NCBI RefSeq assembly: GCF_022227765.1
Contig: NZ_JAJMLZ010000001.1
Span: forward strand, 124,001 to 188,000
DNA: 64,000 nucleotides
From: Ectothiorhodospira shaposhnikovii
GTDB lineage: Bacteria; Pseudomonadota; Gammaproteobacteria; Ectothiorhodospirales; Ectothiorhodospiraceae
Direction: 5' to 3'
The stretch's first letter is position 1; every line of letters begins with the position of its first letter. Made by a program: the position numbers and the translations under genes. Below, piece by piece: positions 47,502-60,539 of the stretch. The notes under the pieces are model-generated. The model worked only from the letters and a program-made list of their open reading frames with translations. It did no database searches and was not told the origin of the DNA.

Positions 47502-48982
47502 ACGCACATCCCCTGCTGATCGGTGCCGCGGACGGCCACCCGGTGGCCATCACCCCGCGCATGGCCAATCGCCACGGCCTCATCGCCGGCGCCACCGGTA
47601 CCGGCAAGACCATCACCCTGCAGACGCTGGCCCAGTCCTTCTCGGACCTGGGGGTGCCGGTGTTCGTGCCGGACATCAAAGGTGACTTTTCCGGCATCGC
47701 CGTCCCCGGCCAGATGAATGACCGGGTACGGGAACGGGCAGGGCAGGTGGGCCTGGATGACCTGGACATGCACGGCGCCCCCACCGTGTTCTGGGATGTG
47801 TTCGGCGAACAGGGCCATCCCCTGCGCCTGACCATCGCCGACCTGGGACCCACCCTGCTCAGCCGGCTGATGAACCTCAACGAGACCCAGAGCGGGCTGA
47901 TGCAGCTGGTGTTCCGGGTGGCCGACGACAACGGCTGGCTGCTGCTGGACCTGAAGGACCTGCGCGCCATGGTCAACTGGGTGGGGGAGCAGCGTCAGAC
48001 CTTGAGCCGTACCTACGGCAACATCGCCCCCGCCAGCCTGGGGGCCATCCAGCGCAGTCTGCTCACCCTGGAGTCCCAGGGCGCGGAGCAGTTCTTCGGT
48101 GAGCCGGCGGTGACCCTGGAGGATTTCCTGCAGACCGACGAGCAGGGGCGGGGCGTGGTCAACATCCTGCACGCGGAGCGTCTGTACCGGGCCAGTCCCC
48201 TGGTGTACTCCACCTTGCTGCTGTGGCTGCTGTCGGAGCTGTTCGAGCAGTTGCCCGAGGTGGGCGACGCGGACAAGCCCCGTTTCGTCCTGTTCTTCGA
48301 CGAGGCCCACCTGCTGTTCAAGGATGCCCCCAAGTCCCTGACCGACCGCATCGAGCAAGTGGTGAGGCTGATCCGGTCCAAGGGGGTGGGGGTGTATTTC
48401 GTCACCCAGAATCCCCTGGATCTGCCCGAACCGGTGCTGGGGCAACTGGGCAACCGCATCCAGCATGCCCTGCGGGCCTTCACCCCTCGGGATCAGAAGG
48501 CGGTGAGGGCGGCGGCACAGACCTTCCGGGCCAAGCCGGGCCTGAATACGGAGGCGGAGATCCTGTCCATGAGCACCGGCACCGCTCTGGTTTCCGTGCT
48601 GGACGAGCGGGGCCAGCCCACGCCGGTGGAGCGCACCCTGATTCGCCCCCCCGCCAGCCGCATTGGCCCGTTGAACGATGCCGAGCGGCGGGCGCTGATT
48701 CAGTCCTCGCCCCTGGCGGGTGTCTACGACACCCCGGTGGATCGGGAATCGGCCTATGAAATCCTGCAGCGACAGGCGGAAGCGGCCCTGAGCGAACCCA
48801 CCACGACGGTCACCACCCAGCAGGCGGCGCGCAGTCGTCGCGGCAGTGGCGGCGGTGCATCCCGGCGGGGCGACAGCGTGCTGGCGGCCACCGCCAAGAG
48901 CACCGCCCGGGCGGTAGGCACCCAGATCGGGCGCCAGATCGTGCGGGGCCTGCTGGGTTCTCTAACGGGGAAGCGGCGCTAA
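47498..48982 (+). CDS. HerA/YjgR-like P-loop ATPase (DUF853)
   Basis: 494 aa member of the FtsK-HerA ATPase clan. Walker A is GATGTGKTITLQTLA; Walker B LFFDEAHLLF; GVYFVTQNPLDLPEPVLGQLGNR follows. E. coli YjgR shares the size and layout; its function is poorly known, possibly DNA or RNA translocation. Tail rich in Arg/Gly/Ser (about residues 440-490). Overlaps the lipocalin by four bases. Its 3' end overlaps rlmK by 4 bp on the other strand. Confidence 0.88.
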   Translation: MNAHPLLIGAADGHPVAITPRMANRHGLIAGATGTGKTITLQTLAQSFSDLGVPVFVPDIKGDFSGIAVPGQMNDRVRERAGQVGLDDLDMHGAPTVFWDVFGEQGHPLRLTIADLGPTLLSRLMNLNETQSGLMQLVFRVADDNGWLLLDLKDLRAMVNWVGEQRQTLSRTYGNIAPASLGAIQRSLLTLESQGAEQFFGEPAVTLEDFLQTDEQGRGVVNILHAERLYRASPLVYSTLLLWLLSELFEQLPEVGDADKPRFVLFFDEAHLLFKDAPKSLTDRIEQVVRLIRSKGVGVYFVTQNPLDLPEPVLGQLGNRIQHALRAFTPRDQKAVRAAAQTFRAKPGLNTEAEILSMSTGTALVSVLDERGQPTPVERTLIRPPASRIGPLNDAERRALIQSSPLAGVYDTPVDRESAYEILQRQAEAALSEPTTTVTTQQAARSRRGSGGGASRRGDSVLAATAKSTARAVGTQIGRQIVRGLLGSLTGKRR

Positions 48983-49923
48983 TCCTCCAACCGCCGGATG
49001 ATCCAGCATCGGTGCGGTCGGCCGCGACCGAAATCCTCGGGCACGGTCTGCCGGGTGATCTCCTCCACCCGGCAGGGGGCCAGTTCGTCCTCATAAAGCT
49101 TGAAACCGCGCCGATTGTTGGAAAAGAACAGCTCCCCATGGGCCGAAAGCAGACCCAGGCAGCGGTTGATCATCCAGGCATGATCCCGCTGCACATCCAG
49201 TGTCGCCGTCATCTTCTTGGAATTGGAAAAGGACGGCGGGTCCATCACGATCAGGTCATAGCGCCGGCCCAGTCGCGGCGCATCCTCCAGCCACTGCATC
49301 ACATCCACCCGCTCCAGCCGATGACGCGTCAGGTCCAGCCCGTTGAGCTGGAAATTCCGCAACGACCACTCCTGATAGGTCCGCGACAGGTCCAGGGTTA
49401 GACTCTCCGAGGCGCCCCCGGCCGCCGCATGCACGGAAAAACTCCCGGTATAGGCAAACAGATTCAGAAACCGCTTGTCCTGACTGCGTTCCCGCACCAT
49501 CGCCCGGGTTTGGCGATGATCCAGGAACAGCCCCGTGTCCAGATAGGCGTGCAGGTTCACCGAGAACCTCAGTCCATCCTCCGACACGATCAGCTCATCA
49601 CCTTCCTGCCCGGTCTTCTCATACTGCTCGGTCCCTTTCTGGCGCCGCCGGACCTTCATCGCCAGCGCCTCCGGCGACAGCCCGAAAACGGCCCCCACCG
49701 TCTCGCGGACCTCCTTCAGCCAGGTGTCATAGGCGGCGTCATCCGCCTCCCAACGGGTCTCGTAAACCTGCACATGGGGGATGCCGGCGTACACATCCAC
49801 CGCCACGGGATACTCCGGGATGTCCCGGTCATAGACGCGGAAGCACTCGACGCCTCGCCGTCTGGCCCATTTTGACCAGTGGCGAAAGTTCTTGGATAAA
49901 CGGTTGTGAAAAGGTGAATTCAT
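48979..49923 (-). CDS. RlmK-like 23S rRNA methyltransferase, stand-alone
   Basis: 314 aa. Resembles the C-terminal half of E. coli RlmKL (RlmK, making m7G2069): WARRRGVECFRVYDRDIPEYPVAVD, the SAM-binding LNLFAYTGSFSVHAA, the NPPY-equivalent DPPSFSNSKKM and FSNNRRGFK. The N-terminal THUMP and RlmL methyltransferase halves are missing, so this is a solitary RlmK-type protein, or an RlmI-like relative. Diverges from the EAL gene. Confidence 0.82.
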   Translation of the reverse strand: MNSPFHNRLSKNFRHWSKWARRRGVECFRVYDRDIPEYPVAVDVYAGIPHVQVYETRWEADDAAYDTWLKEVRETVGAVFGLSPEALAMKVRRRQKGTEQYEKTGQEGDELIVSEDGLRFSVNLHAYLDTGLFLDHRQTRAMVRERSQDKRFLNLFAYTGSFSVHAAAGGASESLTLDLSRTYQEWSLRNFQLNGLDLTRHRLERVDVMQWLEDAPRLGRRYDLIVMDPPSFSNSKKMTATLDVQRDHAWMINRCLGLLSAHGELFFSNNRRGFKLYEDELAPCRVEEITRQTVPEDFGRGRPHRCWIIRRLED

Positions 49924-49943: not shown

Positions 49944-52331
49944 ATGTATCCTGTGAATCAAGCGGTTTTATCACCACTCGGGGGAGGCATGGACAGGCTG
50001 TGGCTTCGCATCGCTGCCACTGTGGCAATACCCATGACGGCATTTCTGATCATGGCGACCATTGCCCTTGGGGAGCATCATCAACGCCACGAGGAGCGCA
50101 CCCGCATGATCCAGGTGGCCCAACTGGCCCTGGACGGCAAGGCCCTCATTCATGCGTTGCAGGCGGAACGGGGCAGCACGGTCGGTTATCTCAGTGCCCT
50201 GGATAATGACTTTCGCGCGATCCTGGACGAGCATCGGGATGCCACGGACCAGGCACTGCGCCGCTATCAGCGGGATGAAACCATTTATCAGCGGGTGACC
50301 GGCGCCGACCTGGCGGTGTTCCGACGGCAACTGGAAGAAGGCGCGGTCCGGCTGGAGGCCCATCGCGAGCGGGTGGACCGCCATCTGCTCCATCCCCTGG
50401 AAAGCGCCGAGCCCTATGGCCGTCTGATCGATCCCCTGATCCTGATCGCCTCTTCCACGCCCGAGGCCGGCGCCACCCCGGGCATGCTGAGCCTTCTGGC
50501 CGCCTACCGTCGCTTGCTCATGCTCAAGGAACAGGCCGCCCGTGAACGTTCCTTGGGCAGTGCCTGGCTGACCGCCGGCACCCCGGATCCGGTCATCTTT
50601 CGTAATTACCTGCAGCGGGTGGCGGTCCAGGAACTGCAACGCAGCCAGTTTCTCAAGCTTGCGCCCGACATTTACGTGGACAGACTCCATGCCTTGGAGC
50701 AACAGCCGGCTCACCAGGAAGTGATGGCCATCCGCGCCGCCATCACCCAGCAGGGCGAGACACAAAAGCCGGCCGGGCTGAACGGTTTGCATTGGTTCCA
50801 GGTCACCTCGGAGCGGATCGACGGACTTCATCAGCTGGAGCGAACGCTGGTGCGCGACATCCTCGATACCGGCCGCGACATCAAGGCCGCCAGTCAGCGT
50901 CAATGGATCACCTTGCTCGGCGTCACCCTGGCTCTCCTGATTCTCACCCTGGCGCTGTCCCTGACCATTGCCAGGACGCTGTTGCAACGCCATGACCGAC
51001 ACGCACAGGCCATGCAGCGCATCCAGTTTCTGGCGTCCCACGACGCCCTCACGGGCCTTCCCAATCGGGATCACTTCAAGGAACACTTGAACCAACTGCT
51101 GTTCCTGGCTAGATCGGAAAAGCGGTCCCTGGGCGTCTTCCTGCTGGACCTGGAAGGGTTTACCGACATCAACCGCATCTGGGGGGAGTCGGTGGCGGAT
51201 GAACTGCTGTGCCGGGTATCGGAGCGTCTATGCAGACTGATGGGGCCGGATGTCCTGATGGCCCGCATCTATGGTGATCAGTTCGGCGTGGTGCTCTACG
51301 ATTCTCCCCAGCTGGACAACCCTGAACACCTGGCGGCGGATCTGCTGGGGGCCCTCCGGCCCCCCGTGGAGATCGGCCCCCGACGCATCGAGGTCAAGGG
51401 CAACATCGGCATCGTCCTGTGCCCGCCGTATCCCACTGATGCCTCGGAACTGCTGGCCTATCTGGCCTTTTCCGTGCAGAACGCCAAGGACGACCTGCTG
51501 CGTCGTCACAGCATCTTCGAGCCCGTGATCATGTCCCGTCATAGCGAATTGCTGCAGATGGATCGTGACCTGGAATGGGCCTTGGAACATGACGAATTCG
51601 AGCTGTACTACCAGCCCAAGGTGGATCTGGTTACCGGCGCGATCGTCAGTGTCGAAGCCCTGTTGCGCTGGAACCATCCCGATCAAGGGATGATTCCCCC
51701 GAACGTCTTCATCCCCCGCGCAGAGGCCAACGGCAGTATCATCCCCCTGGGCGAACAGGTGTTGCGCAAGGCCTGCCTGCAATGTCAGGCATGGCGCGAG
51801 CAGGGGTTTGAAGATCTCACCGTGGCGGTGAACCTGTCCGCCGTCCAGCTCTACCAGGCCAACTTCGTCGAACAGGTGGAGCGTGCCCTGGCCGACACCG
51901 GCCTGCCCGCCGAGGCGCTGGAGCTGGAACTGACGGAGAGCTGCCTGATGGAAGACATGGACGTGGCGGAACGGATACTGCGGTCCCTGTGCACGCTCGG
52001 GGTGAGCTTGTCGGTGGATGATTTCGGCACCGGTTACTCCTCGTTGGCCTACCTGCGTCGTTTTCCGGTGAGCAGCCTCAAGCTCGATCAGCGCTTCGTC
52101 AAGGAGCTGGAAATGGGCGGGGAGGCCGAACTGATCGCCGGGGCCGTGCTGGCCCTGGCCCGTAGCCTGTCGCTGATCACCGTGGCGGAAGGCGTGGAAA
52201 ACCACTATCAGGCCAAGTGGCTGCATGAGCGGGGCTGCCACCAGGCCCAGGGGTATCTCTATGCCCGCCCCATGCCGGCTTCCGCGTGCTTGACCCTGAT
52301 GCAAAAACGGGAGGCATTCGATGTGCCCTGA
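49944..52331 (+). CDS. NIT-domain membrane c-di-GMP phosphodiesterase with degenerate GGDEF and EAL domains
   Basis: About 795 aa. TM1 about 20-42; periplasmic NIT-type sensor (signature LIHALQAERGSTVGYLS, residues 68-84, as in nitrate/nitrite sensors) to about 320; TM2 321-343; GGDEF domain about 360-530 whose active site reads YGDQF (443-447) instead of GGDEF, so cyclase activity is unlikely; EAL domain about 540-790 with E571-A-L573, VNLS, ELTES, DDFGTGYSSL and AEGVE, so phosphodiesterase activity is likely. Start uncertain: ATG 49944 (used) or 49989 (MDRLWLR). It is 18 bp upstream of siaA in the same direction. Confidence 0.86.
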   Translation: MYPVNQAVLSPLGGGMDRLWLRIAATVAIPMTAFLIMATIALGEHHQRHEERTRMIQVAQLALDGKALIHALQAERGSTVGYLSALDNDFRAILDEHRDATDQALRRYQRDETIYQRVTGADLAVFRRQLEEGAVRLEAHRERVDRHLLHPLESAEPYGRLIDPLILIASSTPEAGATPGMLSLLAAYRRLLMLKEQAARERSLGSAWLTAGTPDPVIFRNYLQRVAVQELQRSQFLKLAPDIYVDRLHALEQQPAHQEVMAIRAAITQQGETQKPAGLNGLHWFQVTSERIDGLHQLERTLVRDILDTGRDIKAASQRQWITLLGVTLALLILTLALSLTIARTLLQRHDRHAQAMQRIQFLASHDALTGLPNRDHFKEHLNQLLFLARSEKRSLGVFLLDLEGFTDINRIWGESVADELLCRVSERLCRLMGPDVLMARIYGDQFGVVLYDSPQLDNPEHLAADLLGALRPPVEIGPRRIEVKGNIGIVLCPPYPTDASELLAYLAFSVQNAKDDLLRRHSIFEPVIMSRHSELLQMDRDLEWALEHDEFELYYQPKVDLVTGAIVSVEALLRWNHPDQGMIPPNVFIPRAEANGSIIPLGEQVLRKACLQCQAWREQGFEDLTVAVNLSAVQLYQANFVEQVERALADTGLPAEALELELTESCLMEDMDVAERILRSLCTLGVSLSVDDFGTGYSSLAYLRRFPVSSLKLDQRFVKELEMGGEAELIAGAVLALARSLSLITVAEGVENHYQAKWLHERGCHQAQGYLYARPMPASACLTLMQKREAFDVP

Positions 52332-52349
52332 CGTCCCCGGAGATACCGC

Positions 52350-54350
52350 ATGCTGAAATACCCCCAGGGCCTCAGAGCCAAGTCCATACTGGCCCTGGCA
52401 CTGGCCTGCCTGGTGGCCCTGGTCCCCGCCGGTCTCCTGGGCTGGCAACTGCTGGAAGGTGTTCGTCAATACTTCGGCGAGGCCTTTGCCGAGAACTTCA
52501 CGCGCCTGAACCGGGAACGGATTCTGGCCCCCGTCTCCCGGGACCTGGCCCTGTCCATGCGCCTGGCGGACTCGGAACTGTCACGCCGGTGGCTGCTGGA
52601 TGAAGACAATGCCGAAAAGCGGGCGATGTTCTTCCTGGAGGCGGAGGGGTACCGTCGCGACTTTCGTGACGCTTCCTATTTTCTGATCAGTGCCCTGACC
52701 AGCCATTACTATTTCAACAGTGCCGACCAGCCATTCAGTGATCAACCCCGCTACACCCTGGACCCGGACAAGCCCAGTGATGCCTGGTTCTTCAACACCC
52801 TGGAACAGGCGGCCGACTACAACATCAACGTCAATCCGGATCTGGAACTGGGTACCACCCGGGTCTGGCTCAATGTCCTGGTGCTGGATGGCGAACGCCG
52901 CATCGGCCTGGCCGGAACAGGCCTTGACCTGAGCGGCTTTCTGGAGGATTTCATCCATACCCGCCCGGTGGGCGTGACACCAATGATCCTGGATCACGGG
53001 GGTGCCATCCAGGCCCACCCGGACCCGACGCTGATCAGCTTCGCCTCCACCACCACGGGCGCCGTCAACGGATACACCCTGGCCCGACGCCTGCCGGACG
53101 ACCTGCAACGCACCGAGCTGGCCCAGGCCATGCAGCAGGCCCGGGAACGGATCGATACCGTGCCCCTGCTGTCGGTGACCCTGGACGGACGTGAACAGTT
53201 GCTGGCCCTGGCCTACATCCCGGAGCTTCAGTGGTATGTGGTCACCGCGGTGGATCTGGCCGCGGCCGCGGTGATTCGGGAAGCCTGGCTGCGGGCCGGT
53301 CTGCTGGTGGTGGCCCTGGTACTGCTGATCCTGTTGATCGGGTTTGGTCTGGCCGTGGATCGCATTGTGCTGCGTCCCCTGCGTGAGCTGCAGCAATCCG
53401 CCAGCGCCATGTCCCAGGGGCGCTACGACCTCCAGCTCCCCCGCGCCGGCAAGGACGAGCTCGGCGATCTCGCTCGGGCTTTCGGGCGCATGGCCGAACA
53501 GGTGAAAAGTCATACCGATGAACTGGAAGGGCGGGTGGAGGAGCGCACCGCGGAACTGCGCCAGGCCAACCAGGAAATGGCCACGGCCCAGCGCCAGATT
53601 CAGGCGTCCATCGACTATGCCAGCCTCATCCAGCGGGCCATCCTGCCGGATAACCGCATGGCGGATCTGCTGGGTCCCCATCACTTCGTGCTTTGGCGTC
53701 CCCGGGACGTGGTGGGAGGCGACTTCTACCTGTTCCACAATGACGGCGAACGCTATCTGATCGGCGTGGTGGACTGTGCCGGACACGGGGTACCCGGCGC
53801 CCTGATGACCATGCTCGCTCGGGCCGCCCTGGATCAGGCCATCAACACCCGGGGCATGGCCTCACCGGCGGCCGTGCTGCACCATGCGGACGGCATCGTG
53901 CGGGAAATGCTCAAGGATGCCGAGACCACCCAGGCCATTGCCACCCACATGGATGCGGGACTGGTGTTCGTGGATCGGGGACGGGGTATCCTGCGTTACT
54001 CGGGGGCGCGCATCAGTCTTTATCATAGCGATGGCCACGAGGTGGAGATCGTCAAGGGCGGGCGCCGAGCCCTGGGGGATCGTCGGGTGGGGCAGTACGA
54101 AGATACCGAACTCAGACTGGACCCGGCCGCCACCTACTACCTGGTGACCGATGGCTACCTGGACCAATCCGGGGGGGATCTGGGCTTCGGGCTGGGGACG
54201 AGCCGTTTCAAGGCGCTGCTCATGGCCCACGCCCGCCGCCCCATGGCCGAGCAGGCCGCCGCCCTGGATCAGGCCCTGGATGATTACCGTGGCAAGCATG
54301 ATCAGCGGGATGACGTCACGGTATTGGCCTTTCGCGTCGACCAATCCTGA
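52350..54350 (+). CDS. siaA: SiaA, membrane PP2C-type phosphatase of the Sia circuit
   Basis: 666 aa. TM1 about 12-34, a large periplasmic dCache-like sensor (about 35-305), TM2 about 310-335, HAMP (about 336-390), coiled coil, then a SpoIIE/PP2C phosphatase domain with RPRDVVGGDFYLF and VVDCAGHGVPGALM, containing the metal-binding aspartates. Size and order match Pseudomonas aeruginosa SiaA (about 663 aa), which dephosphorylates SiaC in response to detergent-like and carbon-source signals. GGAG box before the start. Followed by siaB after 48 bp. Confidence 0.92.
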   Translation: MLKYPQGLRAKSILALALACLVALVPAGLLGWQLLEGVRQYFGEAFAENFTRLNRERILAPVSRDLALSMRLADSELSRRWLLDEDNAEKRAMFFLEAEGYRRDFRDASYFLISALTSHYYFNSADQPFSDQPRYTLDPDKPSDAWFFNTLEQAADYNINVNPDLELGTTRVWLNVLVLDGERRIGLAGTGLDLSGFLEDFIHTRPVGVTPMILDHGGAIQAHPDPTLISFASTTTGAVNGYTLARRLPDDLQRTELAQAMQQARERIDTVPLLSVTLDGREQLLALAYIPELQWYVVTAVDLAAAAVIREAWLRAGLLVVALVLLILLIGFGLAVDRIVLRPLRELQQSASAMSQGRYDLQLPRAGKDELGDLARAFGRMAEQVKSHTDELEGRVEERTAELRQANQEMATAQRQIQASIDYASLIQRAILPDNRMADLLGPHHFVLWRPRDVVGGDFYLFHNDGERYLIGVVDCAGHGVPGALMTMLARAALDQAINTRGMASPAAVLHHADGIVREMLKDAETTQAIATHMDAGLVFVDRGRGILRYSGARISLYHSDGHEVEIVKGGRRALGDRRVGQYEDTELRLDPAATYYLVTDGYLDQSGGDLGFGLGTSRFKALLMAHARRPMAEQAAALDQALDDYRGKHDQRDDVTVLAFRVDQS

Positions 54351-54398
54351 TCCAGTGGAAATGCCGCAAGTCAAATACGCAACGGGGTAACACACCTT

Positions 54399-54947
54399 AT
54401 GTCCGAGATCGACCTGTTCAGCCTGCGACGCCAGTTCAACGAGGACCATATCCTCCTGTGCTTCAACGGCCCCATCTCCCGCAGCCTGATCGAAGAGATC
54501 GGCAATGCCCTGAGAAACTATCTGGAGGCGGATAACGCACTCCCCGGCGCGGCGATGGATGTCTTCGGCATCTATATTGAACTGACCCAGAACATCCGCC
54601 ACTACGTCACCCGCATGGGCTACGATGAGCGTGATGGCTCCGCCACCGTCATCGTTGCCCGCAACGGTGCCGGGCGTTACGTCATCATGGCCGGTAACAT
54701 GGTGGAACGGGAAGACGGCGAACTGCTGCGAAACCGGGTGGAGGAACTGGCGGCCATGGACAAGGCGGAACTCAAGGCGGCCTACAAGGCCCAGTTGCGC
54801 AAGCCCCGTGACGAGGGCGTGCTCAGCGGCGCCGGCCTGGGGCTGGTGGATGTGGCGCGGAAATCCCTGGAGCCGCTGTGCGCCAGGATCTCGCCGGTCA
54901 ATGGTGGCGACGACCGGGTGTTCTTCAGCCTGCGTGCCGTCATCTGA
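54399..54947 (+). CDS. siaB: SiaB, protein kinase of SiaC
   Basis: 182 aa. The family DUF6272/SiaB resembles a GHKL-type serine/threonine kinase: ELTQNIRHY is the N-box-like part and GAGLGLVDVAR the G-loop-like end. In P. aeruginosa SiaB phosphorylates SiaC on a threonine, antagonising SiaA. Length is like the known protein (about 180 aa). Its position between SiaA and SiaC is diagnostic. Confidence 0.9.
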   Translation: MSEIDLFSLRRQFNEDHILLCFNGPISRSLIEEIGNALRNYLEADNALPGAAMDVFGIYIELTQNIRHYVTRMGYDERDGSATVIVARNGAGRYVIMAGNMVEREDGELLRNRVEELAAMDKAELKAAYKAQLRKPRDEGVLSGAGLGLVDVARKSLEPLCARISPVNGGDDRVFFSLRAVI

Positions 54948-54971
54948 ACTATCATTATCAAAAAAAGATAC

Positions 54972-55373
54972 ATGCTTATGTCGTCAGTGATCCACGAACT
55001 GGAAATCCCCGGCACTCAGTCCACCCCCGCCATTGCCACCGACCGGGCGCGGGGGCGATTGCACATGGCGGGTAATTCCTATCCCGAGAACTCCTTCGAA
55101 TTCTTTGCCCGGATTTTTGCCTGGATCCAGCAGTACCTGGATGAGACGGACGGCCCCCTGCACCTGGAGCTGGAACTCATCTACATGAACACCAGCAGTG
55201 TGAAGGCCATGATGGACGTCTTCGACATGCTCGAAGAAGCCCATGCCCAATCCCGGGAAGTCCGGGTGAACTGGTATTACGATCCCCGCAATGAACGGGT
55301 CATGGAAATGGCGGAAGAATTCCGCGAGGACTACACCTTCCCGTTCCAGATCCTCCCCACCGCCGATGACTAG
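54972..55373 (+). CDS. siaC: SiaC, phosphorylated regulator of SiaD
   Basis: 133 aa DUF1987 protein (STAS-like fold). The start HELEIPGTQSTPAI and YMNTSSVKAMMDV match the family; T74 here corresponds by context to the phosphorylated threonine of P. aeruginosa SiaC (about T68). Unphosphorylated SiaC binds SiaD and raises its cyclase activity. Start either at 54972 or ATG 54978. It overlaps siaD by eight bases, supporting translational coupling. Confidence 0.92.
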   Translation: MLMSSVIHELEIPGTQSTPAIATDRARGRLHMAGNSYPENSFEFFARIFAWIQQYLDETDGPLHLELELIYMNTSSVKAMMDVFDMLEEAHAQSREVRVNWYYDPRNERVMEMAEEFREDYTFPFQILPTADD

Positions 55374-56169
55374 GCCATCCGGTTCGATCAAGGATGGCAA
55401 GATCCTGTTGGAACGTATCCAGGCCGCGTTGGAAGAGCCCGACCACGCCCGTCATCCCCTCAGACCCTTGCTGGAGGAAGTGAGTGCTCACATCCTTGGT
55501 CAGAATCAGCGCATGGAGCGACTGCTGAGGATATCGGACGGCTACCATCTGCTCGAACACAACCAGAGCCTGACCCTGGCCGAGCGCTGCGAAAAACAGC
55601 TCAGGCGCATGGAAAAGCTCGCCCGCATTTCGGACCAGTACCAGCGCAATCTCTGGGAAGTCACTGAAACCCTGCGTCAGGCGGCCAACCAGGATTCCCT
55701 GACCGGACTGGCCAACCGACGTTTTCTGATGGAGCGGCTCAAGGACGAGACCCAGCGCGCCACCCGCAAGGATACGCGTCTCGCCATTGCCCTGATGGAC
55801 GTGGACCACTTCAAGCAGATCAACGACCGTTTCGGCCACGAAGTGGGCGACGTGGCCCTGTGCGAGATCGCCGGTGCCGTTCGCCAAGGCGTGCGGCGTT
55901 ACGATGTGTATGGCCGTTGGGGCGGGGAAGAATTCCTCCTCATGTTGCCGGATACGAGGCGGGATGAAGCGATGATGGTGCTTGAGCGCATCCGGCAGAC
56001 CATCTCCACCCTCACCGTGGGCGAGGATGATCCCATCCGGCTTTCCGCCAGCTTCGGCGTCACCCTGCTGCGCTCGGGAGAAGACGTGGACGAAGCGCTG
56101 AAGCGGGCGGATGACGCCTTGTTCGAGGCCAAGCGGGCAGGGCGGGACCGGGTGGTGGTGGGGGATTGA
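55366..56169 (+). CDS. siaD: SiaD, diguanylate cyclase
   Basis: 267 aa. N-terminal helical SiaC-binding region (about 1-95) and a GGDEF domain with active-site R-W-GGEEF and an intact RxxD inhibitory site (RRYD) five residues before it, so the enzyme should be active and product-inhibited. It makes c-di-GMP and promotes aggregation and biofilm when SiaC is unphosphorylated. The ATG at 55366 overlaps the siaC stop; the frame is open upstream but inside siaC. Confidence 0.93.
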   Translation: MTRPSGSIKDGKILLERIQAALEEPDHARHPLRPLLEEVSAHILGQNQRMERLLRISDGYHLLEHNQSLTLAERCEKQLRRMEKLARISDQYQRNLWEVTETLRQAANQDSLTGLANRRFLMERLKDETQRATRKDTRLAIALMDVDHFKQINDRFGHEVGDVALCEIAGAVRQGVRRYDVYGRWGGEEFLLMLPDTRRDEAMMVLERIRQTISTLTVGEDDPIRLSASFGVTLLRSGEDVDEALKRADDALFEAKRAGRDRVVVGD

Positions 56170-56190
56170 AGGCGATTCACCGGCGCTGCA

Positions 56191-56310
56191 TACCTGTTCG
56201 GGTCTTTGCCCATCACTCCCGCGAAATACCTGTTCGGGTCTTTTCCCGTCACTCCCGCGAAATATCTGTTCGGGTCTTTTCCTGTCACTCCCGCGAAAGC
56301 GGGAGACCAG
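56191..56310. repeat. Three tandem 36-bp units ending in a dRS3-like palindrome
   Basis: Three head-to-tail 36-bp units (56191-56226, 56227-56262, 56263-56298) share TACCTGTTCGGGTCTTT-like halves followed by CACTCCCGCGAAA; they differ at one to five positions. Each contains the left part of a palindrome, but only the third continues into the full stem CTCCCGC...GCGGGAG (56289-56306) with the same family as the repeats at 19470-19632. They lie between siaD and the cas operon, a likely junction. No spacers, so not a CRISPR array. Confidence 0.85.
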
Positions 56311-56448
56311 CAGCGGGAGATGGAGGCAGTGCAGTGTTCTTCGGCGCGCGCTTCGCTGAGCATCTGGCGCAGTCAGGTGGAGTCAGTCGAATTTGAATGA
56401 ATTGCGGCTTTTTGTAACACATTACGCTTGACGAATAAGGAAATTCTC

Positions 56449-59037
56449 ATGTTGCGAAAACGTGTGTCTAGGGGTTCTGAATGTAGGGCAGTTTCTTTCG
56501 AAAAGTGCCCTGCCAAGACCTACCAGAGAGTTGATGGGGTCAAAATTGAAGGCCACTCTGTTCTTGAGCACTGCCAGATCGTCGGCGAGGTGGCACGAGC
56601 GCTGATTGCTCGCTATCCATCTGTGCTGCGTAACGCCCTGTTTCCGCCGGGCGCGGAGATGGCCGCGTCTGGGCACGATATCGGCAAGGTCAGTCCCTGC
56701 TTCTACGAAAAACTGCGCCGTGCCTGCAGCCAAGGGCAGACAGTCCTTGAGCCTCTGCCCAACATCAACCCGGATCTTGAAAAACAATGGGGTGGCCATG
56801 CAGGTGTCAGTCAAGTGACTGCCAAGGCACTTGATGCGCCGCCGTATGTGGCAGAGATTCTCGGTCAGCATCATGGCTTCTCTCCACCTGTTGCAGGTCT
56901 CAAGGCGGGTGATGATATTTTTGGCGGGCCACTTTGGCAGCAGGAACGCGCAGCGCTGGTGGCCAAGCTGAAGACGTTGCTCGACAGTGACTGGCCGCTC
57001 ATCGAATCAGTGTCGCAGGCACGCCTGTTGGCTGGGTTGACTTCGGTGGCCGACTGGATCGGCTCGGGGTCTTTTTTTGAAGACCCAGCGCAGCCGTGGC
57101 GGGAACGCATCGAACCCGCACTGGATGACGCCGGTTTCATCCGTCCCGACTATCAAACAGGCCTTTCGTTTGAACAGCTCTTCGGCTTTACTCCTTACCC
57201 GGCTCAACAGCAGTTGATTGATGCGGTGGCCGGCCCAGGAGTCTATGTGCTGGAAGCACCGATGGGCGTGGGCAAGACCGAGGCATCACTGTATGTCGCT
57301 TACCGTATGCTCGCTGGCGGCCAGGCCAGTGGCATCTATTTCGCCCTTCCAACCCAGTTAACCTCCAACAAGATCTACGAGCGCTTCAACGAATTCCTGA
57401 AGGGCATTCTTGCTCCTCAGTGTCGCCACCGCACCCTCCTGCTGCACGGTAAGAACTGGCTGATGGATACCGAAATGGGGGAGGAAGGGGGACCGGGTGG
57501 CGCCTGGTTCAATCAGGCCAAGCGGGGACTGCTGGCACCTTTCGCGGTCGGTACCATTGACCAGGCGCTGATGGCGGCGATGAACGTCAAGCATGGATTT
57601 GTACGTGCCTTCGGGTTGGCTGGCAAGGTGGTTATTCTCGACGAAGTGCACACCTACGACGCCTATACCAGCACCCTGCTGAATGCCTTGGTCGAACTGC
57701 TGCGCGAACTCCATTGCACCGTCATCATCCTCAGCGCCACGCTGAATCGTGAGCGCCGCCAGCAACTGGCGGGTGCCGTGGTCAGGAATGAGTCCTATCC
57801 GCTGATTACCGCTGTGCCGCGCCGGCAGCCTGTGAGTGAGTGGCCCGTTCCTAGTGGAGCGAGCCATACAGTGAATGTGCATTTGCGCGACGCGCAGCAC
57901 GCGGCACTGGCCGAGGCCCTGGATCGGGCCAGTCGCGGCCAGCAAGTACTATGGATCGAGAACACCGTAGTGGAAGCGCAGGAGCGCTATCTTGACTTGG
58001 CTGCTCGCGCTGCCGAACTGGGTGTCGCCTGTGGCCTGTTGCACTCCCGCTTTACCGCCGAGGATCGCCAGCGCATTGAGGCGTCTTGGGTCAGCCTGTT
58101 CGGCAAGAGGGGCTGGCAGGAGAGGACAAGGCAGGGTCGGATTCTGGTCGGCACACAGATCCTCGAACAGTCGCTGGATATCGACGCCGACTTTCTGGTC
58201 AGCCGTTTTGCACCGACCGACATGCTACTGCAGCGCCTGGGCCGACTGTGGCGGCATATCGGAACACCGCGTGAGCCTGAGGCCCGTTGCGAAGCCTGGA
58301 TATTGGCGCCCGACCTAGCGCAGGCGATTGACGCGCCGCTCTCCGCGTTTGGCAGCAGTGCTCATGTCTATAGCGCCTATGTGTTGTGCCGAAGCCTGGA
58401 GGTTTGGCAGGGGATCGACTCGCTGCGCCTGCCGCAGGATATTCGCGCGCTGATCGAGCAGACCTATGCCCAGCGTCAGGAAGACGGGGCCATGGCGCGG
58501 TGGTTGCACGAATTGGACAACGGCACGCCGCGGCGCAAGGGTCGCAGGGCCCTGGCCCAGCTGGCCCGAGTGACCCTGGCCGAGGATGGTAAAAACCTGT
58601 CGGACAGTGAGGCTCAAACCCGCCACAGCGAATCGGAAGGTGAAGAGGTGCTGCTGCTGCGTGCCACCATGCCACTGCCGGAGCAGAGGACGACGCGTCT
58701 GATTCTACTTGATGGTCGGCAGTTGCTGTTGCCCTGGGACCGACATAAATTGGACAAGCGTGGATGGCGCGAACTCAGTGTCTGCCTGATGCGGCAGATC
58801 GTGCCGGTGCCTGTACAGGCGGCGCCGGAATGTCTGCCTGTTGATACCTTGAAGAAGATGGGCCTGCAGCACTGTTTTTATCTGGGCAATCCTGTCCAGG
58901 AAGAATCCGTCTTGCGAGTTGTGTTGGTCGATGAAACCAGTGTGCTGCAGGGTCTGCAGGGCGCCCAGGTGCATCGGAAACATATCCTGGAATATCGTGA
59001 CGACCTGGGCTATCGGGTGATCAAGGAGCATGGATGA
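56449..59037 (+). CDS. cas3: Cas3, type I-E helicase-nuclease
   Basis: 862 aa single-chain HD nuclease plus superfamily 2 helicase that degrades DNA after recruitment to the target-bound Cascade complex. HD part: E40-H41 region, H76-D77 (SGHDIGKVSPCF), H141-H142 and D202 supply metal ligands. Helicase: Walker A APMGVGKTEAS (270-280), DEVH box 398-401, SAT 429-431, and motif VI QRLGRLWRH. Start at 56449 with AAGGA 8 bases upstream; a TTG at 56428 would add seven residues. First gene of the cas operon, lower in GC by eye than its neighbours. Confidence 0.95.
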   Translation: MLRKRVSRGSECRAVSFEKCPAKTYQRVDGVKIEGHSVLEHCQIVGEVARALIARYPSVLRNALFPPGAEMAASGHDIGKVSPCFYEKLRRACSQGQTVLEPLPNINPDLEKQWGGHAGVSQVTAKALDAPPYVAEILGQHHGFSPPVAGLKAGDDIFGGPLWQQERAALVAKLKTLLDSDWPLIESVSQARLLAGLTSVADWIGSGSFFEDPAQPWRERIEPALDDAGFIRPDYQTGLSFEQLFGFTPYPAQQQLIDAVAGPGVYVLEAPMGVGKTEASLYVAYRMLAGGQASGIYFALPTQLTSNKIYERFNEFLKGILAPQCRHRTLLLHGKNWLMDTEMGEEGGPGGAWFNQAKRGLLAPFAVGTIDQALMAAMNVKHGFVRAFGLAGKVVILDEVHTYDAYTSTLLNALVELLRELHCTVIILSATLNRERRQQLAGAVVRNESYPLITAVPRRQPVSEWPVPSGASHTVNVHLRDAQHAALAEALDRASRGQQVLWIENTVVEAQERYLDLAARAAELGVACGLLHSRFTAEDRQRIEASWVSLFGKRGWQERTRQGRILVGTQILEQSLDIDADFLVSRFAPTDMLLQRLGRLWRHIGTPREPEARCEAWILAPDLAQAIDAPLSAFGSSAHVYSAYVLCRSLEVWQGIDSLRLPQDIRALIEQTYAQRQEDGAMARWLHELDNGTPRRKGRRALAQLARVTLAEDGKNLSDSEAQTRHSESEGEEVLLLRATMPLPEQRTTRLILLDGRQLLLPWDRHKLDKRGWRELSVCLMRQIVPVPVQAAPECLPVDTLKKMGLQHCFYLGNPVQEESVLRVVLVDETSVLQGLQGAQVHRKHILEYRDDLGYRVIKEHG

Positions 59038-60539
59038 GCAATATGGAAAACCACTTCAATCTGGTTCAAGAACCCTGGATACCAGTCGCCGGTATCGGGC
59101 GCGTCGGTCTTCGGAAAATCTTCGAGAATCCGCAGTATCGCAGTCTCGGTGGTCATCCGGTACAGCGGATCGCCTTGATGAAATTGCTGCTGGCCATCGC
59201 CCAAGCGGCAGCAACACCGGCTGATGAACAAGCCTGGCGATCACTTGGCGCCGAAGGACTGGCGCGTAGTTGCCTGGCCTATCTGGATCGCTGGCATGAG
59301 TATTTCTACCTGTATGGCGAACGACCGTTCCTGCAGATGCCGGCCGTTCGCGCAGCGGCTCTGCAGCGCTATGGTGCAGTATTACCGGAGATCTCTACCG
59401 GTAATACCACGGTACTCAGCCACGGACAGGTCGAGCGTCGGCTGGATGACGGGGAAAAAGCGCTGTTGCTGGTCAGCCTGATGGCCTTTGCCCTGTCGGG
59501 CAAGAAGACTGACAACAGTGTGGTGCTGACCCCCGGCTATGCCGGCAAGCGCAACGACAAGGGCAAGCCTTCATCCAGTAAGCCGGGACCTGCGGTGGCG
59601 CACATGGGCCTGCTGCACAGCTTCTTGATCGGTAGCAACCTGCAGGAAACCTTGTGGCTCAATCTGTTGACGGACCGTCAGGTCGAACAGGCGATGATCT
59701 TCCCGGGCGGAGTCGGTACGGCACCCTGGGAGTGCATGCCGGTGGGCGAGGATTGCCCGGTTGCCCAGGATCTCAAGCAGTCGTTGATGGGCCGCCTAGT
59801 GCCGCTGTGTCGATTCTGTCTGCTGGCTGAGGAAGGCCTGCACTACTCGGAAGGGTTGGCACATGCCGGTTACAAGGAAGGTGTCTATGACCCCAGTATG
59901 GCGGTCAATCATTCCGGCAAGGAGCCCAAGGCGCTGTGGGTTGATCCGGAAAAGCGCCCTTGGCGCGAACTGACTTCTCTGCTGGGTTTCATTGAACAGG
60001 GGCATCCGCGAGGCTTTCAGAGCCTGCAACTGCGCGCAGGGCTGGACCGTGCTCGCGACGTGACCAAGGTCTTTGCCATCTGGTCGGGTGGTTTGCGGGT
60101 CAGCAGCAATGCCGGGGAGCAGTACGCTTCCGGCGTTGACGATTTCGTCGAGTCCCAGGTTTGGTTACATAGCAACATGCTCGGTGAACCGTGGCTTATC
60201 CATCTCAAGATGGAGATGAATGCGCTGGGGGAACTGGCCAAAAAGTTATACGGTCGGGTGATGGCCTTCTTCAAGGAACAAAATGTGGACGGGGGCAAGC
60301 TGGCTACCCAGGCCTCGACCCTATTCTGGCAACTTTGTGAGCGCCACTTCCAGCAACTGGTAGATGCCTGCGAGCCGGACGAGCAGGGGGCCGAACAGCG
60401 CCGCCAACTGCGGTTGATTTTCGCAGGTTATGTTCAACAGGCCTACGACCGCTTCTGCCCGAAGGAAACCGCCCGGCAGCTGGATGCCTGGGCAAAGTGT
60501 CGACCGAACAACAGCAAATATCTGCGTCAGGAGGCGTAA
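59034..60539 (+). CDS. cse1: Cse1/CasA (Cas8e), large subunit of Cascade
   Basis: 501 aa. Family features: FNLVQEPWIPVAGIGRVG at the N-terminus, GERPFLQMPAV and the conserved ending region; usual length for Cas8e (about 500). It recognises the PAM and recruits Cas3. Its start overlaps the cas3 stop by four bases with AAGGAG ahead, so the operon is coupled. Confidence 0.92.
   Translation: MSNMENHFNLVQEPWIPVAGIGRVGLRKIFENPQYRSLGGHPVQRIALMKLLLAIAQAAATPADEQAWRSLGAEGLARSCLAYLDRWHEYFYLYGERPFLQMPAVRAAALQRYGAVLPEISTGNTTVLSHGQVERRLDDGEKALLLVSLMAFALSGKKTDNSVVLTPGYAGKRNDKGKPSSSKPGPAVAHMGLLHSFLIGSNLQETLWLNLLTDRQVEQAMIFPGGVGTAPWECMPVGEDCPVAQDLKQSLMGRLVPLCRFCLLAEEGLHYSEGLAHAGYKEGVYDPSMAVNHSGKEPKALWVDPEKRPWRELTSLLGFIEQGHPRGFQSLQLRAGLDRARDVTKVFAIWSGGLRVSSNAGEQYASGVDDFVESQVWLHSNMLGEPWLIHLKMEMNALGELAKKLYGRVMAFFKEQNVDGGKLATQASTLFWQLCERHFQQLVDACEPDEQGAEQRRQLRLIFAGYVQQAYDRFCPKETARQLDAWAKCRPNNSKYLRQEA

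Follow-up and report, generated by a model that had tools for sequence, protein, structure and literature searches.

A predicted membrane phosphodiesterase gene is linked to siaABCD in three Ectothiorhodospira species

In Ectothiorhodospira shaposhnikovii the gene of a predicted c-di-GMP phosphodiesterase (PDE) stands directly ahead of siaABCD, and we asked whether it forms one circuit with these genes or is only their neighbour. The DNA analysed is a stretch of 64,000 nt, called the window below. c-di-GMP is a biofilm messenger, and in Pseudomonas aeruginosa it is established that dephosphorylated SiaC activates the diguanylate cyclase SiaD. The mechanism of SiaA, SiaB, SiaC and SiaD in that species has been described (PMC7647112, PMC8457831), and the system there is a four-gene siaABCD operon (PMC7647112), in which no PDE is reported in the literature searched. 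In the window, the PDE gene, siaA, siaB, siaC and siaD follow one another on the same strand; the first three gaps measure 18, 48 and 24 bp, and siaC overlaps siaD. This order, strand and spacing had been given by a sequence-only reading of the same DNA, and the gene coordinates bear them out.

48979..49923, minus strand: rlmI-like methyltransferase gene (PF10672, 97.2 bits), the divergent left neighbour, outside the circuit
49989..52331, plus strand: PDE gene, encoding a membrane protein with NIT, degenerate GGDEF and EAL domains (Pfam; 780 aa from the better-supported start)
50142..50861, plus strand: NIT sensor domain (PF08376, 138.5 bits; structure 4akk), predicted to be periplasmic, between two membrane helices
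51033..51458, plus strand: GGDEF domain with the degenerate active site YGDQF (PF00990, 97.6 bits)
51564..52271, plus strand: EAL phosphodiesterase domain with intact catalytic motifs (PF00563, 238 bits)
52350..54350, plus strand: siaA, dCache-like sensor, HAMP and PP2C (SpoIIE) phosphatase (NF038263, 1076.9 bits; structure 6k4e)
54399..54947, plus strand: siaB, SiaC kinase (NF038264, 282.8 bits)
54972..55373, plus strand: siaC, phosphoprotein (NF038265, 205.5 bits; structure 6k4f)
55366..56169, plus strand: siaD, diguanylate cyclase with GGEEF (NF038266, 319.3 bits; structure 7e6g)
55528..55545, plus strand: first SiaC-binding motif of the SiaD stalk, RISDGY (RISDGYH), aligned to the 7e6g stalk
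55624..55641, plus strand: second SiaC-binding motif of the SiaD stalk, RISDQY (RISDQYQ), aligned to the 7e6g stalk

The PDE had earlier been started at 49944 (795 aa), but the ATG at that position has no Shine-Dalgarno sequence. Because a Shine-Dalgarno sequence (GGGGGAGG) precedes the ATG at 49989 in three species, the membrane-anchor helix begins there and the GGGGGAGGCATGGACAG block at this start is identical across all three orthologues, 49989 is the likelier start, which gives a protein of 780 aa. The start of siaD is most likely 55366 and not the beginning of its open reading frame at 55291: this start goes with ATGACTAG, it makes the overlap with siaC 8 bp long, and it agrees with how the protein aligns to SiaD of P. 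aeruginosa (7e6g).

The first protein had been read as a NIT-EAL protein, and the NIT and EAL domains stand, but Pfam places a GGDEF domain between them that had been overlooked, so a plain NIT-EAL architecture is rejected. Two hydrophobic segments (residues 8–26 and 307–325) flank the NIT domain, hence a periplasmic NIT sensor is the natural reading. The domain matches the structure of a nitrate regulator (4akk, E = 6e-5), and its signal is perhaps nitrate or nitrite, as the name of the Pfam family suggests. Its GGDEF motif reads YGDQF in all 15 of the 15 NIT-GGDEF-EAL homologues compared, which makes a bifunctional enzyme unlikely. All of the catalytic motifs checked in the EAL domain are kept (EALLR, VNLS, ELTES, DDFGTG, LKLD, AEGVE and QGY), and the protein should break down c-di-GMP. 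A pattern search for the SiaC-binding stalk motif found none in this PDE or in the other sia-linked PDEs, so there is no sign that this PDE contacts the switch directly.

The four genes that follow had been named siaA, siaB, siaC and siaD, and these identities hold, because in this order each protein passes its NCBIfam equivalog cut-off (700 bits for SiaA, 225 for SiaB, 150 for SiaC and 290 for SiaD). Their Pfam domains are SpoIIE and HAMP with a dCache-like match (33.4 bits, under the curated cut-off of 45), DUF6272, SiaC and GGDEF. The SiaA phosphatase domain aligns end to end with that of P. aeruginosa (6k4e, E = 1e-105), including the PP2C metal-binding segments GGDF, VDCAGHG, TDG and RDD, and the roles of the metal-binding residues are described for P. 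aeruginosa SiaA (PMC7647112). In SiaC the NTSS phosphosite is invariant; N73-T74-S75 correspond to N67-T68-S69 of P. aeruginosa in the alignment to 6k4f, so T74 here is T68 there. SiaD matches 7e6g with E = 6e-66 and keeps the GGEEF and RxxD sites, and the two stalk motifs listed above correspond to those that bind SiaC in the crystal structure (PMC8457831). By sequence, then, SiaA, SiaB, SiaC and SiaD all share the features of their counterparts in the functioning system of P. aeruginosa; by analogy we infer that dephosphorylated SiaC would also activate SiaD in the species of the window.

A canonical sia locus is present in seven Ectothiorhodospira species, three of which have the PDE gene between rlmI and siaA, namely the window genome (G000), G002 and E. 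lacustris (G004); among the relatives, NIT and SiaC genes occur together only in these three. The rlmI gene serves as the fixed point of synteny, since its position is constant whether or not a relative has the PDE: in E. marina (G009), G006 and E. magna (G003) rlmI is followed by siaA with nothing between, and in the three carriers the PDE gene fills this space. In the SiaA tree, too, the carriers form one group (support 95/99). Because rlmI and siaA are adjacent in three congeners and most other genera have no PDE at this place, a single gain is the simplest account, and the PDE gene was most likely gained once, by an insertion between these two genes within one subgroup of Ectothiorhodospira; it is possible that the gene was ancestral at the site and lost elsewhere. 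Pairwise dN/dS among the three species is 0.13–0.16 for the PDE, 0.11–0.12 for siaA, 0.06–0.08 for siaB, 0.14–0.16 for siaC and 0.13–0.20 for siaD. Thus the PDE is maintained under purifying selection as its neighbours are, and the order PDE-siaABCD, kept in three species at this dN/dS, is more than chance. This upholds the earlier claim of tight linkage between an intact SiaABCD and a PDE that has a predicted periplasmic sensor of its own; the three species all keep this linkage.

In other genera we surveyed 80 named sia loci, a non-random set formed by the best-scoring of more than 240, with siaA assigned in 79 and siaD in 78. Among these best 80 loci, siaA has an EAL gene immediately upstream on its own strand in 3 of 79 cases (E. 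lacustris, and Marinomonas communis and M. ostreistagni with gaps of 29 and 13 bp), and an EAL gene abuts siaD downstream in 2 of 78 (E. lacustris, with a 4-bp overlap, and Achromobacter sp., with no gap). Most sia operons have no PDE gene, and the PDE is not a general Sia partner. The expectation that the NIT-EAL gene would be found next to sia in other genomes thus holds only for the three Ectothiorhodospira species; in Marinomonas and Achromobacter it is unrelated EAL genes that adjoin sia. Because the sia-linked EAL proteins differ between lineages (CHASE-PAS-GGDEF-EAL in Marinomonas, PAS-GAF-GGDEF-EAL in Achromobacter), the coupling of EAL genes to sia arose independently, more than once. 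A second PDE gene, of the PAS-GGDEF-EAL type, directly follows siaD in G002 and E. lacustris (L029:1590-5006 and L031:3392-5965).

The window genome has a second module of similar composition.

L040:5837-12904 (G000:C38): Sia-like module with a CBS-SpoIIE phosphatase, a SiaB-type kinase, a SiaC-type protein and a GGDEF protein

We call this module Sia-like because its proteins fall below the NCBIfam equivalog cut-offs for Sia (207.8 against 700 for the SiaA-like protein and 73.9 against 150 for the SiaC-like protein). It shares with the sia block of the window a phosphatase, a kinase, a SiaC-type protein, a GGDEF protein and an EAL protein ahead of them, and differs in its sub-cut-off SiaA- and SiaC-like proteins and in having a cytosolic CBS sensor. 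The gene upstream of its phosphatase gene, with an overlap of 4 bp, encodes an EAL-CBS-GGDEF protein, and this arrangement recurs in G002 and E. lacustris; in G006 and E. marina the EAL-CBS-GGDEF gene is convergent with the module and touches it, and in G001 and E. mobilis (G008) it is convergent and ∼2.5 kb away. The module is thus PDE-linked in every one of the seven congeners that carry it, and a functional link is suggested by the EAL-CBS-GGDEF gene having stayed nearby despite rearrangement. This EAL neighbour and the phosphatase have related CBS parts, that of the phosphatase being N-terminal (hhalign probability 98, E = 2e-13). Further upstream of the module in the window genome lies the gene of a response-regulator PAS-GGDEF-EAL protein.

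We think it probable, though with some reserve, that the five genes of the window form one operon, in which a membrane PDE is co-expressed with SiaABCD so that a maker and a breaker of c-di-GMP stand under two sensors. This reading is favoured by the tight same-strand spacing, the order kept in three species and the dN/dS of the PDE, which is close to that of siaA; by the intact EAL motifs, and by Sia proteins that are equivalogs with their key residues; by the other PDE genes that abut sia in Marinomonas and Achromobacter and the second one after siaD in E. lacustris and G002; and by the Sia-like module of the same genome, which is also led by an EAL gene, with a 4-bp overlap. In such an operon, the NIT-GGDEF-EAL protein would be made together with the partner switch. 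SiaA, through its own sensor, would dephosphorylate SiaC, which would then bind the SiaD stalk and turn on c-di-GMP synthesis, and the PDE would remove c-di-GMP under the NIT signal. Net c-di-GMP would then reflect two outside signals, the SiaA signal minus the NIT signal, and co-expression would hold the ratio of maker to breaker constant.

A less probable reading, which we nevertheless take seriously, is that a functional PDE between rlmI and siaA shares the transcript and works on the cell's overall c-di-GMP or on some other target, with no specific role in Sia. The linkage is confined to three related species, related NIT-GGDEF-EAL genes elsewhere in the genus have no sia nearby, the PDE has no SiaC-binding motif, and EAL genes are numerous in the window genome (25 EAL-domain matches in 3.34 Mb), so it is possible that an EAL gene adjoins sia without a specific link. 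By a rough estimate, an EAL gene would be the immediate upstream same-strand neighbour of a given gene in well under 1% of cases, and because signalling genes cluster we claim no significance for the adjacency. However, EAL genes were coupled to sia independently in other lineages, a second PDE follows siaD in two species, and the Sia-like module is PDE-linked in every congener having it, all of which speak for a specific role.

It is also conceivable, but improbable, that a promoter in the 3′-end of the PDE gene drives siaA, so that the two are separate transcription units and their proximity is incidental; this reading may overlap with that of a PDE without a Sia role. A scan for sigma-70 promoters on the plus strand between 49600 and 56700 gave no match anywhere, and non-consensus promoters, to which such a scan is blind, leave room for this arrangement. 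Against it, the gap of just 18 bp between the PDE gene and siaA supports a single predicted transcript, and the PDE gene breaks up the intergenic stretch which, in congeners, lies between rlmI and siaA. Still more doubtful is a PDE that binds SiaD or SiaC directly and uses c-di-GMP binding as a sensor to lock or release SiaD rather than mainly lowering the pool, as its tight linkage to siaD and a GGDEFdeg-EAL layout like that of E. coli PdeR (PAS-GGDEFdeg-EAL), which contacts its partner cyclase (PMC5635695), could suggest, but it shares no stalk motif and keeps all hydrolytic residues, though PdeR is active too.

Returning to the one-operon reading, its relation to known systems bears on the earlier suggestion that the opposing maker-breaker design might be undescribed. 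Compared with P. aeruginosa SiaABCD, the block has orthologous SiaA–D in the same gene order, the SiaC NTSS phosphosite, the two SiaC-binding stalk motifs of SiaD and its GGEEF and RxxD sites, and differs in the NIT-GGDEF-EAL gene ahead of siaA. In cdg1-3 of Komagataeibacter xylinus a PDE gene likewise stands directly upstream of a diguanylate cyclase gene in one operon, and such operons are among the earliest c-di-GMP genes described (PMC6559022); unlike the present block, they have no phosphatase/kinase partner switch, and their enzymes are cytosolic and PAS-sensing, with no periplasmic NIT sensor. The antagonistic cyclase and PDE of E. coli dosCP (dgcO-pdeO) are also encoded by coupled, co-transcribed genes (PMC8846402, PMC5635695), but both enzymes sense oxygen and form a complex, and there is no partner switch. 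With PDE and cyclase genes adjacent on one strand across species, the present block is probably a maker-breaker operon of the same kind, and the design itself, preceded by cdg1-3 (PMC6559022) and dosCP (PMC8846402), is not new. In the literature searched, outside which most subscription papers fell, Sia with a PDE gene in its operon is not described; the pairing of a PDE with SiaABCD thus appears undescribed, the maker-plus-breaker principle being already known.

If the coupling is functional, a brake with its own, second sensor is built into the Sia partner switch, and Sia, which studies so far have treated as a producer of four genes, evolves by taking in an enzyme that consumes what it makes, like other c-di-GMP operons. 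Near relatives that have or lack the PDE at one chromosomal site would then offer a natural comparison. More tentatively, Sia-type switches may have repeatedly recruited a dedicated, separately sensing PDE to the operon that encodes them, so that both Sia-type modules are hard-wired as maker-breaker systems in three Ectothiorhodospira species, and the phosphatase and PDE of the second module, with related CBS sensors, may read one signal in opposite ways.

Several minor observations concern the PDE family and the surroundings of sia. The PDE clade shares ∼45–52% identity with the remaining NIT-GGDEF-EAL proteins of Ectothiorhodospira and stands separately, with weak placement, and its sensor part has no strong match beyond the genus among 369 sampled Gammaproteobacteria. 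At a distance from sia, the genus has another maker-breaker cluster, in which a HAMP-GGDEF cyclase gene comes after a tandem NIT-GGDEF-EAL pair and overlaps it by 4 bp (L042:4274-11079 and L044:8254-15062). The PDE as a recently moved member of such pairs of congeners finds no support, as it forms its own clade with this identity to all of them. In G006 an internal deletion of the canonical sia locus (L032:6585-8598) fuses siaA at about residue 596 to siaB at about residue 112, and siaC and siaD are open. Where G002 and E. lacustris have the PAS-GGDEF-EAL gene, behind siaD, the window has cas3 and no such gene; relocation of this gene within the window genome finds no support, the best match there being a protein of 59% identity. 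Between siaD and cas3 lies a 36-bp tandem repeat in three copies (ATACCTGTTCGGGTCTTTTCCCGTCACTCCCGCGAA; 56190-56298), and the CRISPR-Cas genes just downstream of the sia block (56428-60539) comprise cas3 and a large cas gene, the latter assigned by position.
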